From Methanosarcina vacuolata Z-761 (GTDB taxonomy: Archaea; Halobacteriota; Methanosarcinia; Methanosarcinales; Methanosarcinaceae), in assembly GCF_000969905.1 (NCBI RefSeq), contig NZ_CP009520.1, positions 310,001-374,000 of the forward strand: a stretch of DNA of 64,000 bases, given 5' to 3'. Position 1 is the first letter of the stretch. Every line of letters begins with the position of its first letter. Below are positions 8,917 through 59,816 of this stretch, one piece after another. Below the pieces are notes generated by a model, which saw only the letters and a program-made list of their open reading frames with translations, was not told the origin of the DNA and ran no database searches. The position numbers were made by a program, and so were the translations under genes.

Positions 8917-9216
8917 CTGTTACCCCTAATGTAACAATAAATTTAAATCTTTTCTGTTTGTATACGTCAAAAGATCTAAGTCACAAAAGATTTGCCGCAA
9001 AATAGTATAATCTTAGCAAAATATTATATTTATTAACATTTATACAAACTTTGGATGTTATATTTTCAGTTCCGGGATAAAAAAAGGCAAGTATTATTTA
9101 AATGTACACAATATTAGATAATGAGCCTTCGGCCCAGAGAAAAAAGGCAAATTCAAGACGTGTACCAAGTTCCTTAAATTGTATTTCACACTAAAAATAT
9201 ATGAGGGGAATCTACT
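8917..9216. promoter_or_regulatory. divergent promoter region between TrmB regulator and RND operon
   Basis: AT-rich intergenic DNA. A TATA-like TATTATTTAAAT at about 9091-9103 could drive the exporter operon, giving a leader of roughly 90 bases. A clear ribosome binding site, GAGGGG (9203-9208), precedes the presumed exporter start. Sites for the regulator cannot be assigned. Confidence 0.4.
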
Positions 9217-11577
9217 ATTAAAAATATTTTTGAAAAACTGGGATTTTTCATTCAGAAGAACCGTTTTTCCATACTCCTGATAGCTTTACTGTGTATACTT
9301 ATAGCAACGCAGGGAGCGCAGCTCATTGAGATGGAATCAGGAACAGAAACCTTTGTTGGAAAAGACTCTCCTCTCTACCAGGATTATGATCACCTTTATC
9401 AAAAAATTTTCCAGACACAATCTGTTGTGGTAATGGTAGAGGGCAACGATGTAGAAACTGCTGACGTGATGAAAGCTGTAGACAGGCTAGAACATCAGGT
9501 CCAGGCAACCAATGGGGTAATTGAAACTACAAGCCCCGCTTCACTGATCAAACAGATCAATTATAAGATGACAGGGAAATCTAAACTCCCTGATACCGAT
9601 GAAGAAATAAAAACCATTGTGGATGGAAACCCTGATATTTTCGGCCAGCTTATTCCTGATAATACTCATATGGTAATTTCGGTAGTCATGGCCGGTTCAG
9701 CTAGTGAAGATAATCAGGAAGATATCCTTGCTTCCACTCAAGAAGCTGTTTCACTTGCGGATTTTCCACCTTCCTACAACATTATTGTTACTGGCGATCC
9801 AGCATTCAGCGTTTCCATGAACGATGAGATGACTTCCAGTATGGGAGTGCTTCTAGGACTTTCAGCGGTTTTCATGATTATTGTACTGCTTCTTGTGTTC
9901 AGACATGTTCGCTGGTGTCTTCTTCCTCTGCCGATAGTTCTTCTTGGTATTGTTTATACCTTCGGAGCCATGGGTTATATAGGAATTCCCATGTCCATGG
10001 TTTCCATGGCTGCATTCCCTATCCTTATAGGCTTAGGAATTGACTATGCTATTCAGTTCCATAACCGACTTGAGGAGGAACTTCGGGAAAAAGGGAACAA
10101 AACAACAGCAGTTATAGAAACCGTAAAGCATACCGGGCCTGCAGTCCTCACAGCTCTGGTAATGACAGCCCTTGGATTTTTCTCCCTTTTTACATCTACA
10201 GTGCCAATGATCCAGGATTTTGGTAAATTGCTTATGATAGGCATTTTAATGTGTTACTTCTCTGCTATCTTTGTAGGGGTTATAACAATTTCTTTATTTG
10301 ACAAATACTCGGATAAAAACCCCCTGAGGAAGGTAATAAGTAAGATAAAACCTGCAAATCCGGAAAAGAAGAAAAAGTCTGAGGAAGGAGACGAAAGTGA
10401 TCGCCTGATAGGGAGGATCCTGCAGAAAACTACAAACCTGACTATCAAATATGACGTTGTAGTACTGGGAATTGCACTCTTGCTCTGCTTTGGCGGACTT
10501 TACCTCGACCAGTCCGTGCCTATCCAGACTGATGTTGAAACTTTTGTGCCTCAGGACATGCCTGCACTCGTGGATCTTCAACATATGGGAGATATCATGG
10601 GCAATAGTGATGAATTAAACCTTATCATCAAGGTTAAGGACGTAGCTAATCCAGACGTCCTTAAGTGGATTGATCAGTTTTCCGAGCATGAAGCAGCGTC
10701 TAATAGCCACATTTACGGCTCTTCGAGCATTGTAGATCTCGTAAAGGAATATAATGGAGGGGTAATTCCCGATACCAGCCAGGAAATAAAGGATATTTAC
10801 TCTGAAATTCCTGATTCACAGAAAGACCGCTATATATACGGGAATAATATGCTTCTCCTGAACTTCGACATAGGAAATGCGGTTGCGGACATAAAGGTAA
10901 CAGGTATTGAGGAACTCAGGAATGTTGTCAAGCAAGACATGCAGTGGATGCCGGCTCCACCGGGCACAGCTGTCACGATTACCGGAAACTCGGTTGTGTA
11001 CATAGAGGTTATCTCTGCTCTTACCAGCGGAAGAATTACAATGACTTTCCTTGGCCTGATCCTCGTGCTCGCAGGGCTTCTTATTGTATACAAAGACTGG
11101 GTGAAAGCCCTTGTTCCTGTAATCCCAATGTTAATAGTTATTGGTTGGTCAGGCGGAGTTATGAGCCTTCTTAATATCAGCTATACTCCCCTCACAGCAA
11201 CCCTGGGAGCTCTGATACTGGGAGTCGGGTCAGAATATGCTATCCTCATGATGGAACGTTACTTTGAAGAAAAGGATAAAGGAGCAAGTCCTTTAGAGGC
11301 TATCCAGCTAACCAGTTCCAAAATAGGAAGTGCAATTGTTGCTTCAGGGGCCACGACGGTATTCGGGTTTATGGCCCTGCTGGCTTCTCCTTTCCCCATA
11401 ATAACCGACTTTGGTACAGTTACGGTTATCGATGTCTTGCTGGCTCTCTTGGCAACCTTTGTAGTCTTCCCCCCGCTTATGGTTACTTTTGATATCTGGC
11501 GCGATAAAAGAAAAGGGGCCAGGACAGCAGAAAAACAGACAGATACAAAAAAACAAATTCAGGGGGCCGAGATATGA
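9217..11577 (+). CDS. RND/MMPL-family exporter, probable ATT start
   Basis: Membrane transporter of about 786 residues in two similar halves. Each has one helix, a large outside domain, then about five helices. Duplicated motifs are visible: LGIDYAIQFHNRLEEE and VGSEYAILMMERYFEE; ALGFFSLFTS and VFGFMALLAS. This is the archaeal HAE/MMPL type, proton-driven export of lipids or hydrophobic compounds. The first ATG, 9331, lies after the first membrane helix (about FSILLIALLCILIATQ). The frame is open back to a TGA at 9202, and GAGGGG (9203-9208) points to ATT at 9217, giving KNIFEKLGFFIQKNRF as the expected cytoplasmic start. The gene overlaps the next by ATGA (11574). Confidence 0.85.
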   Translation: MKNIFEKLGFFIQKNRFSILLIALLCILIATQGAQLIEMESGTETFVGKDSPLYQDYDHLYQKIFQTQSVVVMVEGNDVETADVMKAVDRLEHQVQATNGVIETTSPASLIKQINYKMTGKSKLPDTDEEIKTIVDGNPDIFGQLIPDNTHMVISVVMAGSASEDNQEDILASTQEAVSLADFPPSYNIIVTGDPAFSVSMNDEMTSSMGVLLGLSAVFMIIVLLLVFRHVRWCLLPLPIVLLGIVYTFGAMGYIGIPMSMVSMAAFPILIGLGIDYAIQFHNRLEEELREKGNKTTAVIETVKHTGPAVLTALVMTALGFFSLFTSTVPMIQDFGKLLMIGILMCYFSAIFVGVITISLFDKYSDKNPLRKVISKIKPANPEKKKKSEEGDESDRLIGRILQKTTNLTIKYDVVVLGIALLLCFGGLYLDQSVPIQTDVETFVPQDMPALVDLQHMGDIMGNSDELNLIIKVKDVANPDVLKWIDQFSEHEAASNSHIYGSSSIVDLVKEYNGGVIPDTSQEIKDIYSEIPDSQKDRYIYGNNMLLLNFDIGNAVADIKVTGIEELRNVVKQDMQWMPAPPGTAVTITGNSVVYIEVISALTSGRITMTFLGLILVLAGLLIVYKDWVKALVPVIPMLIVIGWSGGVMSLLNISYTPLTATLGALILGVGSEYAILMMERYFEEKDKGASPLEAIQLTSSKIGSAIVASGATTVFGFMALLASPFPIITDFGTVTVIDVLLALLATFVVFPPLMVTFDIWRDKRKGARTAEKQTDTKKQIQGAEI

Positions 11578-50790: not shown

Positions 50791-51116
50791 AGCGTCATCA
50801 TTAAGGTATTTTCTCAAGACACCTTTTCCCAGTAACCTTTCAGCGGGTAAGTTTTCAAAAAAAATAAGGATAGGTAAAGACGACGCTCGGCAAACCCCAA
50901 ATCGTTAATGTACATTACCTTAAGAACATAAGATAATGACTATAAGTCATATTTTTCCTCCTTACCCTATACTTTCTTTGTCTTTCCCCAGAACTTTCAT
51001 GAAAACTTCTTTGTTTTTTAAAATAAGAGAAACTTTTTTATGCTTACTTATCATTTATACTTTTGTTATACTGTTTGACATTTTAACTTTTTAAACTCTT
51101 CAATGGGGGTCTTAAC
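50791..51116 (+). promoter_or_regulatory. upstream region of the iron-sulfur flavoprotein gene
   Basis: AT-rich, no gene. TTTATACTTTTG-like sequences (about 51053) are TATA candidates. GGGGGT (51105-51110) is the ribosome binding site. Confidence 0.4.
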
Positions 51117-51722
51117 ATTAAAATTCTTGGATTGGTGGGTAGTCCTAATATCAATGGGAATACTGCAAAGCTTGTAAATGCAATTCTCGACGGAGCTGCT
51201 GAAAACGGTGCCGAAAAAGTAATTTACAATCTAGCTTCTCTAAATATTAAAGGTTGTGACGCCTGCTTCAGATGCAAGGAATCAGGCTGCTGTGCAATAG
51301 ACGACGACATGCAGGAACTTTACCACGAAATCCAGGCTGCAGACACTATTGTAATCGGCTCTCCTGTTTACATGTGGCAGATGACGGCCCAAACTAAACT
51401 CTTAATTGACCGTCTGACAGCCTTTTTAAAACCTGATTTTTCAAGCAGGCTTGATAATAAAAAACTGATCCTTGTTTTTTCCCAGGGCAGTTCAGACAGG
51501 GATGCCTTCAAACCGTATTTTGAATACACAGCCGGCCTTCTCTATTATCTCGGCTTTGATGTCCTGGAAACCGTTATTGCGGCTGGCACGGATAATCTTG
51601 AAGTCTCATTCAGGCCCAGGCTGCTTGAAAAAGCAAGAGAACTTGGAAAATTGGTTTCAGCTTCTCCTTTTTCTGGTCCTGAGTTTAGAAAAAGCGAGTC
51701 AAGCCTGATCCCACTTCTCTGA
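51117..51722 (+). CDS. iron-sulfur flavoprotein (Isf-like, NADPH-dependent FMN reductase family), probable ATT start
   Basis: A flavodoxin-fold protein of about 201 residues. KILGLVGSPNINGNTAKL is the FMN phosphate loop, and CDACFRCKESGCC (about residues 46-58) the compact cysteine motif of archaeal Isf, which binds a 4Fe-4S cluster and FMN and can reduce oxygen or peroxide. The first usual codon, TTG at 51132, would cut into the beta-1 strand; the frame extends to ATT at 51117, six bases after GGGGGT, giving the family start (M)KILGLVGSP. It lies after a repeat element and stands alone. Confidence 0.85.
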   Translation: MKILGLVGSPNINGNTAKLVNAILDGAAENGAEKVIYNLASLNIKGCDACFRCKESGCCAIDDDMQELYHEIQAADTIVIGSPVYMWQMTAQTKLLIDRLTAFLKPDFSSRLDNKKLILVFSQGSSDRDAFKPYFEYTAGLLYYLGFDVLETVIAAGTDNLEVSFRPRLLEKARELGKLVSASPFSGPEFRKSESSLIPLL

Positions 51723-58174: not shown

Positions 58175-59392
58175 ATGTATCTTACAAAAGAAGAAGAGCA
58201 AATCCTGAATGGAGACGCCGGAGAGACTCTCAGGCAAGCTATTGAAATCCTGGTGGCCCTTGGGGATATTTACGGTGCAGATGGGCTTATTCCCATCAAA
58301 AGTGCCCAGATTGCAGGAGTTTCTTACAAAACTATGGGCGATGCGGGTCTTGAATGGATTTCAGACCTGCAGGGGAAGGTTAAGGTTCCTGCGATTCTAA
58401 ACCCTGCCGGGATGGATCTGCAAGACTGGAAAAGGCTCAGGATCTCGCCCGAGTTTGCGGAAAAACAAAAATTGATTGTCCAGGCATACGAAAAACTGGG
58501 AATTCGGTGTGAATGCACATGTACGCCTTATAATCTCGAGGGTTTTGATGTCGGTTACGGTGACCATCTGGCATGGAGCGAATCATCAGCCGTTTCCTAT
58601 GCAAATTCCGTACTCGGGGCCAGAACAAACCGGGAAGGTGGGCCGTCAGCCCTTTCTGCTGCACTTCTTGGAAAAACCGCAAACTATGGATTCCATCTGG
58701 ATGAAAACCGTGTGCCTGAGATTTCATTTGATGTAGAATATCCACTGAAGGGATCGGATTACGGTGCGCTTGGTTATGTAGCTGGGAAACTTGCAGGGAG
58801 CAGGGTGCCTGTTTTTCATCTAAGGAGTACTCCGGATGCGGATGAGTTAAAAGCGCTGGGAGCTGCAATGGCAGCGTCAGGAGCAGTTGCCCTTTACCAC
58901 GTTGAAGGAGTCACGCCTGAGATTCGCAGGGTGGATTTTGAGGAGCCGTCAGAAAAAATAACTATTGAGAAAAGCCAGCTTGAAGAGGTTTATGCGAGCC
59001 TGAAAAAAGCCTGCAAGGAGCCTGAATTGATAACCATAGGGTGTCCTCACTGCTCGGCAGCAGAGCTCGAAAAAGCAGCCGAACTCCTGAGAGGAAAAAC
59101 AGTTTCAAAAGAGTTCTGGATCTTTACCTCAAGGGAACTTGCAAAGCGCTATCCTGAGTATGTCGGGACCATTGAGAAAAGTGGAGCTAAGGTTGTCTGT
59201 GACACCTGCATGGTAGTTTCTCCTGCTACCAACAGCTATTCCTGTGTCATGGTGAACTCAGGAAAAGCGCTTGCTTATGTGCCGGGGATGTGCGGAGCTG
59301 AAGCCGTATACGGAAGTATGGAGGCCTGTGTCGAGGAAGCAGTAGGCGAAGCATCAAAGAAGGTAGTAAAAAAGGCAGGTGGTTCCCATTAA
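58175..59392 (+). CDS. phosphomevalonate dehydratase large subunit (AcnX type)
   Basis: A 405-residue AcnX protein. YLTKEEEQILNGDAGETLRQ is the family opening; LPIKSAQIAGVSYKTMGDAG-like residues, CECTCTPYNLEG (cluster-related cysteines), GCPHCSAAE and CDTCMVVSPATNSYSC follow. With the small subunit it dehydrates mevalonate 5-phosphate to trans-anhydromevalonate 5-phosphate, using a 3Fe-4S or 4Fe-4S cluster. It lies 79 bases after the decarboxylase gene and overlaps the small subunit frame. Length agrees with the family. Confidence 0.93.
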   Translation: MYLTKEEEQILNGDAGETLRQAIEILVALGDIYGADGLIPIKSAQIAGVSYKTMGDAGLEWISDLQGKVKVPAILNPAGMDLQDWKRLRISPEFAEKQKLIVQAYEKLGIRCECTCTPYNLEGFDVGYGDHLAWSESSAVSYANSVLGARTNREGGPSALSAALLGKTANYGFHLDENRVPEISFDVEYPLKGSDYGALGYVAGKLAGSRVPVFHLRSTPDADELKALGAAMAASGAVALYHVEGVTPEIRRVDFEEPSEKITIEKSQLEEVYASLKKACKEPELITIGCPHCSAAELEKAAELLRGKTVSKEFWIFTSRELAKRYPEYVGTIEKSGAKVVCDTCMVVSPATNSYSCVMVNSGKALAYVPGMCGAEAVYGSMEACVEEAVGEASKKVVKKAGGSH

Positions 59393-59816
59393 ACTTAAAG
59401 GCAGGACGATTTCAAGAGGATGTGCACAGGGGGAAGTACTGCTCTCCAGAGATCCTATTTCATTCCTTGGCAGTGTAGACCCGAAAACCGGGGTTGTAAT
59501 TGAAGAGAATCATGCCCTTGAAGGAAAATCAATCCAGAATAAAGTTCTTGTTTTTCCACACGGCAAAGGCTCTACAGTTGGCTCGTATGTTATGTATCAA
59601 CTGAAGAAAAATGGGGTCGCCCCTTCAGCGATAATAAATCTGGAAACCGAGCCCATAGTTGCAGTTGGAGCCATTATTTCCGAAATCCCACTTGTTGATA
59701 TGCTTGAGAGAAACCCTTACGAAGTATTAAATAATGGAGATCTTGTTCTGGTTAACGGAAGTAAAGGATATATTGAACTTCTCAAGCAGGAAACCATTAA
59801 AACTGAAAACGAGTAA
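59379..59816 (+). CDS. phosphomevalonate dehydratase small subunit (AcnX type)
   Basis: A 142-145-residue swivel domain. KLKGRTISRGCAQGEVLLS is the family start, GSTVGSYVMYQL the substrate-facing loop, and AIINLETEPIVAVGAIISE the later helix-strand. The frame can begin at GTG 59379 (inside the large subunit gene) or at ATT 59388, which directly overlaps the large subunit TAA and follows GGTGGT at suitable spacing. The coordinates here use GTG. It is translationally coupled to the large subunit. Confidence 0.92.
   Translation: MVPIKLKGRTISRGCAQGEVLLSRDPISFLGSVDPKTGVVIEENHALEGKSIQNKVLVFPHGKGSTVGSYVMYQLKKNGVAPSAIINLETEPIVAVGAIISEIPLVDMLERNPYEVLNNGDLVLVNGSKGYIELLKQETIKTENE

Follow-up and report, generated by a model that had tools for sequence, protein, structure and literature searches.

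A conserved AUU start codon in an Isf-like gene of Methanosarcina, with evidence for further near-cognate starts

THE ISF-LIKE GENE AND ITS LEADER

The window analysed here, a stretch of 64,000 nucleotides covering positions 310001-374000 of contig C2 in a genome of 4.56 Mb that is of Methanosarcina, as are all its close relatives, carries on its forward strand an Isf-like iron-sulfur flavoprotein gene (51117..51722) of 201 codons plus a stop at 51720-51722, whose first codon is ATT (51117..51119). The product matches the Pfam families FMN_red (PF03358, 2.6e-24) and PF02525 (1.6e-18), its first residue, that of the ATT codon, aligning with position 1 of the FMN_red profile. It contains a CX2CX2CX4C motif, compact as expected for a [4Fe-4S] cluster, which takes the form CX2CX2CX4CC in 27 of 28 orthologues. 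Only distant relatives are found among solved structures detectable by sequence. Judged by its open frame, family matches and cysteine motif, the product is an Isf-like protein of the FMN_red/flavodoxin fold; its FMN and [4Fe-4S] content and its part in electron transfer are inferred.

The start region consists of a Shine-Dalgarno (SD) site GGGGGT (51105..51110, forward strand), the six bases CTTAAC (51111-51116), the ATT and an AAA codon (51120-51122), with the frame reading IKILGLVGSP from the ATT onward. This is the arrangement that the original prediction had described. The SD site pairs at -9.6 kcal/mol with the 3′ end of the 16S rRNA of the source genome (GGATCACCTCCT, used for SD pairing energies), and its anchor distance of 7 is the mode among ATG genes. 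Further upstream, 63 bases before the ATT, lies a TATA-like box TTTATACTTTTG (51054..51065, forward strand), conserved in the leader alignment and inferred to act as promoter. The nearest in-frame stop upstream is TAA 51084, and between it and the ATT there is no in-frame ATG, GTG or TTG; downstream, no usual start occurs before codon 6, which is TTG 51132. A small upstream open reading frame of 24 codons from ATG 51103 was considered and rejected: it has no SD site (+3.4 kcal/mol), and leaders that read AACGGGGG lack its ATG.

GENOMES AND TESTS

Orthologues of the Isf-like gene were compared in 28 Methanosarcina genomes, all independent assemblies, and in a further six from two sister genera, making 34. 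The genomes compared are species representatives, and because of their kinship the counts given below are not independent observations. For the genome-wide scan, 1.26 Mb were taken as stretches in which 807 genes were called by codon usage. The enrichment test was limited to coding onsets of genes without an SD-backed usual start, which excluded 567 of the 807, and to SD sites of <=-10 kcal/mol at the modal spacing, with spacings of 11-15 serving as control. Its filter was tightened once, after a first version had proved uninformative. Fifteen candidates were afterwards followed into five other species by means of joined protein queries. Where no family search was made, the names of functions are our own reading of the sequence.

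CONSERVATION OF THE ATT START

Codon 1 of the Isf-like gene is ATT in 25 and ATC in three of the 28 Methanosarcina genomes, with no ATG, and it is ATT in all six sister-genus genomes, so that the comparison with homologues proposed in the original prediction gives a near-cognate start in 34 of 34. ATT or ATC also stands here in all 18 relatives from species genomes, while most bacterial and more distant archaeal relatives show ATG at, or adjoining, the aligned residue. At several sister-genus loci tandem paralogues adjoin the gene; their first codon is ATG, and the N terminus encoded after it is the same. Their ATG at the aligned residue marks the ATT of the Isf-like gene as the methionine position. 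Tandem arrays of two or three Isf-like copies, present in some species (L069, L078, L284, L286), have ATT in the first copy and ATG in the others.

The leader points to the same codon. Its order is a conserved TATA-like box, a variable stretch with indels that are not multiples of three, and then a conserved SD block. The block from the SD site through ATT-AAA is the best conserved portion of the leader across the 28 genomes and is free of indels from the SD site into the gene, and in all 28 the GGGGG is invariant and at constant distance from codon 1. Residues 2, 4 and 5 are invariant despite synonymous base changes.

Several other explanations of the missing ATG have to be weighed. Sequencing error, which the original prediction had allowed for, fails as an objection, as the 34 genomes, of 28 Methanosarcina species and two sister genera, come from independent assemblies and all read ATT or ATC. 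Automatic annotation would place the start at TTG 51132 (51132..51134), the other objection named in the original prediction, or at GTG 51135, giving a protein without IKILG. TTG is permitted as a start in archaea and stands at codon 6 in 24 of the 28 orthologues, but the other four have TTA or CTG there. In orthologue L057 usual starts are missing from both codon 6 and codon 7; the first to occur is an ATG at codon 65. SD pairing before TTG 51132 is only -0.9 kcal/mol, with no SD site at a usable distance. The residues that such a start would remove were predicted to be conserved, and indeed are; they match the beginning of the FMN_red profile. We regard this start as very unlikely, while a minor shorter product from TTG or GTG at codons 6-7, which many orthologues retain, cannot be excluded.

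If translation began at a usual start further upstream, ATT 51117 would be an internal isoleucine codon, and some orthologues do have an in-frame TTG six codons before the ATT. In the window gene, however, no such start exists after stop 51084, which already refutes the idea unless a near-cognate upstream codon is invoked; moreover, the preceding stretch changes length by non-multiples of three and has the SD site within it. As little credit can be given to decay of the gene, in which the ATG would have mutated away and translation been lost. The missing ATG is all that speaks for it, against ATT or ATC in 34 genomes and an intact, conserved protein in which most sites show synonymous change only. 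Both of these readings can be set aside almost completely. It is very likely that the gene initiates at AUU 51117 by means of the ordinary initiator tRNA, although there are no protein-level data.

FURTHER NEAR-COGNATE STARTS IN THE WINDOW

A gene for an HAE3/MMPL-family transporter (9217..11577, forward strand; 786 codons; TIGR00921, 1e-223) also begins with ATT. An in-frame stop (9202) lies five codons before the ATT and no usual start occurs before codon 39 (9331), and codon 1 is ATT in 28 and ATC in one of 29 sequences (orthologues and one paralogue), so that as far as comparison of sequences can decide, an ATT start is nearly forced. The original prediction saw one pattern in the two genes. 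The ATT-AAA is indeed identical, but the transporter's SD site GAGGGG (9203..9208, forward strand) is weaker, at -6.7 kcal/mol, and lies further from the ATT. In the region 9202-9222, just ahead of the transporter start, a six-codon open reading frame, MRGIYY, ends with a TAA overlapping the ATT-AAA; it occurs in many, though not all, orthologues. Termination and reinitiation through this frame was rejected as a general mechanism, its ATG being missing in some orthologues (L101, L106) and its stop in L089.

The third case is a DUF126 gene (59388..59816, forward strand; NF003046, 1e-61 over the full model), probably encoding the small subunit of phosphomevalonate dehydratase. It has an SD site of -11.9 kcal/mol and an ATT-AAA start with ATT in 5/5 other species; an in-frame GTG (59379) inside the SD site is an alternative start.

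Conservation of the third base of the transporter start is equalled by only two of 109 fourfold sites. Fourfold sites without G in any genome number 9 of 24 in the Isf-like gene and 21 of 109 in the transporter gene, so that a lack of G does not by itself reach significance. Such counts are no more than suggestive of selection against ATG at these starts.

THE GENOME-WIDE SET

The genome-wide search called for by the original prediction was carried out on the 1.26 Mb. At the modal spacing, SD sites of <=-10 kcal/mol precede 10 of 1270 near-cognate codons, compared with 1 of 6962 other codons (p=7e-8); at the control spacings of 11-15 there was no near-cognate excess (ratio 0.9). A first test over broad regions had given no excess of ATT. 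Since the filter was tightened after that result had been seen, the conservation tests serve as independent support, and for most of the 15 candidates traced in five other species they gave conserved near-cognate starts (AUU, AUC, AUA, CUG). Together with the conservation of ATT or ATC, this excess makes the case for use of AUU over chance decay, argued originally from two genes, stronger than it was. The claim as it concerned AUU stands but was too narrow, as AUC, AUA and CUG starts occur too, and ATT-AAA is not a needed context, other cases reading ATT-AGC, ATT-ACT and ATC-ACC.

A corrinoid-protein gene (C2:575126, forward strand) has ATT in 5/5 other species, where its close paralogues start with ATG-GCA. 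The gene at C2:262604 has a strong SD site and ATT in 4/4, and that at C2:181823, also with a strong SD site and ATT, resembles a paralogue of it and was not separately traced. Strong SD sites were further listed before near-cognate codons at C2:524687 (ATC/ATT), 495414 (ATA), 909189 (ATA/ATT), 820401 (ATA/ATT) and 822122 (CTG/TTG). The traced genes with conserved near-cognate starts include those for a PhoU-like protein (always ATC or ATT), a cysteine desulfurase (ATA in 5/5), mannose-1-phosphate guanylyltransferase-like and prenyl-diphosphate-synthase-like proteins (ATA/ATT in each) and a DUF255 protein (CTG/TTG). Two genes, one HPS-like and one for a glycosyltransferase, have ATA or ATC in some species and ATG in others. 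Two candidates were dropped, 809427 for lack of conservation in relatives and 937735 for conservation in one relative only. Among orthologues, then, ATT, ATC and ATA interchange, as do CTG and TTG, and ATG joins them in two genes. Such exchange at one place fits a general tolerance of near-cognate codons and not a special decoding of AUU, as far as can be read from alignments. Extrapolation from the 1.26 Mb suggests that the whole genome holds some tens of genes with near-cognate starts.

INITIATION FACTORS AND INITIATOR tRNA

One candidate (C2:881502, reverse strand) is, by its sequence, the gene for initiation factor aIF1A. Across 30 genomes, which represent eight genera of Methanosarcinaceae (L350-L379), its start is nearly always CTG, with TTG in two and ATG in one, and most of these genomes have an SD site at the modal spacing. 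The near-cognate set thus probably includes a gene for a translation initiation factor. The gene for aIF1 (SUI1) starts with ATG (L263-L268), with GGAGG about 12 bases upstream, further than the modal 7. Two identical CAU initiator tRNA genes lie in tandem (C2:4398828 and 4398966), and no initiator-type tRNA with a non-CAU anticodon was present among the tRNA genes identified. A dedicated non-AUG initiator tRNA was accordingly rejected, only the ordinary CAU initiators having been found.

INTERPRETATION

Taken as a whole, we are confident that AUU 51117 is the start codon, led by its SD site and read by the ordinary initiator, and that the gene is a member of a near-cognate set in Methanosarcinaceae with conserved start codons and SD sites; no protein, ribosome-profiling or reporter data were available for it. 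In the simplest mechanism, the helix GGGGGU:ACCUCC formed with the 16S rRNA, spaced as is usual in AUG genes, would hold the AUU in the P site, where the CAU initiator tRNA could pair with its first two bases and tolerate the mismatch at the third. Because the mismatch would be tolerated by that tRNA, the protein should begin with methionine, and Met is what we infer at its N terminus. Output from AUU is inferred to be lower than AUG would give, and a near-cognate start may be, as seems probable, a setting for low or factor-sensitive expression. Low expression and initiation-factor stringency are both possible reasons for keeping so weak a codon.

A further-reaching proposal is that the near-cognate starts, some tens of genes per genome, form a regulon whose output follows the activity, and hence the stringency, of aIF1 and aIF1A, with the CUG of aIF1A closing a feedback loop, as an independent archaeal counterpart of IF3 control. 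The CTG start of aIF1A in nearly all of those 30 genomes from eight genera favours this, as do the report that in Sulfolobus aIF1 acts against non-canonical starts (PMC6237735) and the bacterial precedent of sigR (PMC5472188). Against it stand the lack of any expression or regulation data, member genes without obvious common function, and two members that swap with ATG between species. By analogy with bacterial IF3, the CUG start of aIF1A hints at a feedback loop. The regulon is a plausible idea that we hold only tentatively, and rather doubt, while initiation of the Isf-like gene at AUU does not share that doubt.

To our knowledge, AUU, AUC, AUA and CUG starts are not listed for archaea in textbooks. 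Archaeal annotation normally allows ATG, GTG and TTG only, so that genes such as these come out shortened or are overlooked. For archaeal initiation, a review from 2020 gives AUG, GUG and UUG (PMC7531240), and Ribo-seq of M. mazei gives ATG, GTG and TTG, and also CTG, at which 5% of new small ORFs start (PMC11456600); AUU, AUC and AUA were not found in the passages of these two sources that were searched. Across 36 genome triples, one study found that switches to AUU almost never occur (PMC5622118), and against this an AUU conserved throughout a family stands out. No literature on AUU starts in Methanosarcina was found among open-access papers, which is no proof of its absence. A conserved set of AUU, AUC, AUA and CUG starts in genetically tractable archaea makes the start-codon stringency of aIF1 and aIF1A testable in vivo.

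COMPARISON WITH KNOWN SYSTEMS

The bacterial infC gene, encoding IF3, has a conserved AUU start that follows an SD site, is decoded by the normal initiator tRNA and is subject to autoregulation. The Isf-like gene resembles it in its conserved AUU behind an SD site, very probably read by the ordinary initiator as well, and aIF1A in being an initiation factor gene with a non-AUG start, here CUG; the CTG of aIF1A may possibly parallel the AUU of infC, if the analogy holds. The differences are that infC is bacterial, and that in Methanosarcina the AUU genes are metabolic or transport genes, the factor gene has CUG and no regulation has been shown. In Streptomyces sigR, which starts with GTC and is repressed by IF3 (PMC5472188), a non-canonical start is likewise conserved in a gene other than that of an initiation factor; it differs from the Isf-like case in its codon, its bacterial host and its demonstrated regulation. 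Known SD-led initiation in archaea, at AUG, GUG or UUG, has the same mechanism and spacing as in the near-cognate genes and differs in the start codon. Another ATT start has been inferred for the tubulin gene atubA of Asgard archaea (PMC13394414): there too a complete fold requires that translation begin at an upstream ATT provided with a ribosome binding site. That inference concerns a single gene in a single sequence, whereas the Methanosarcina codon is conserved family-wide and near-cognate starts are found in many genes.
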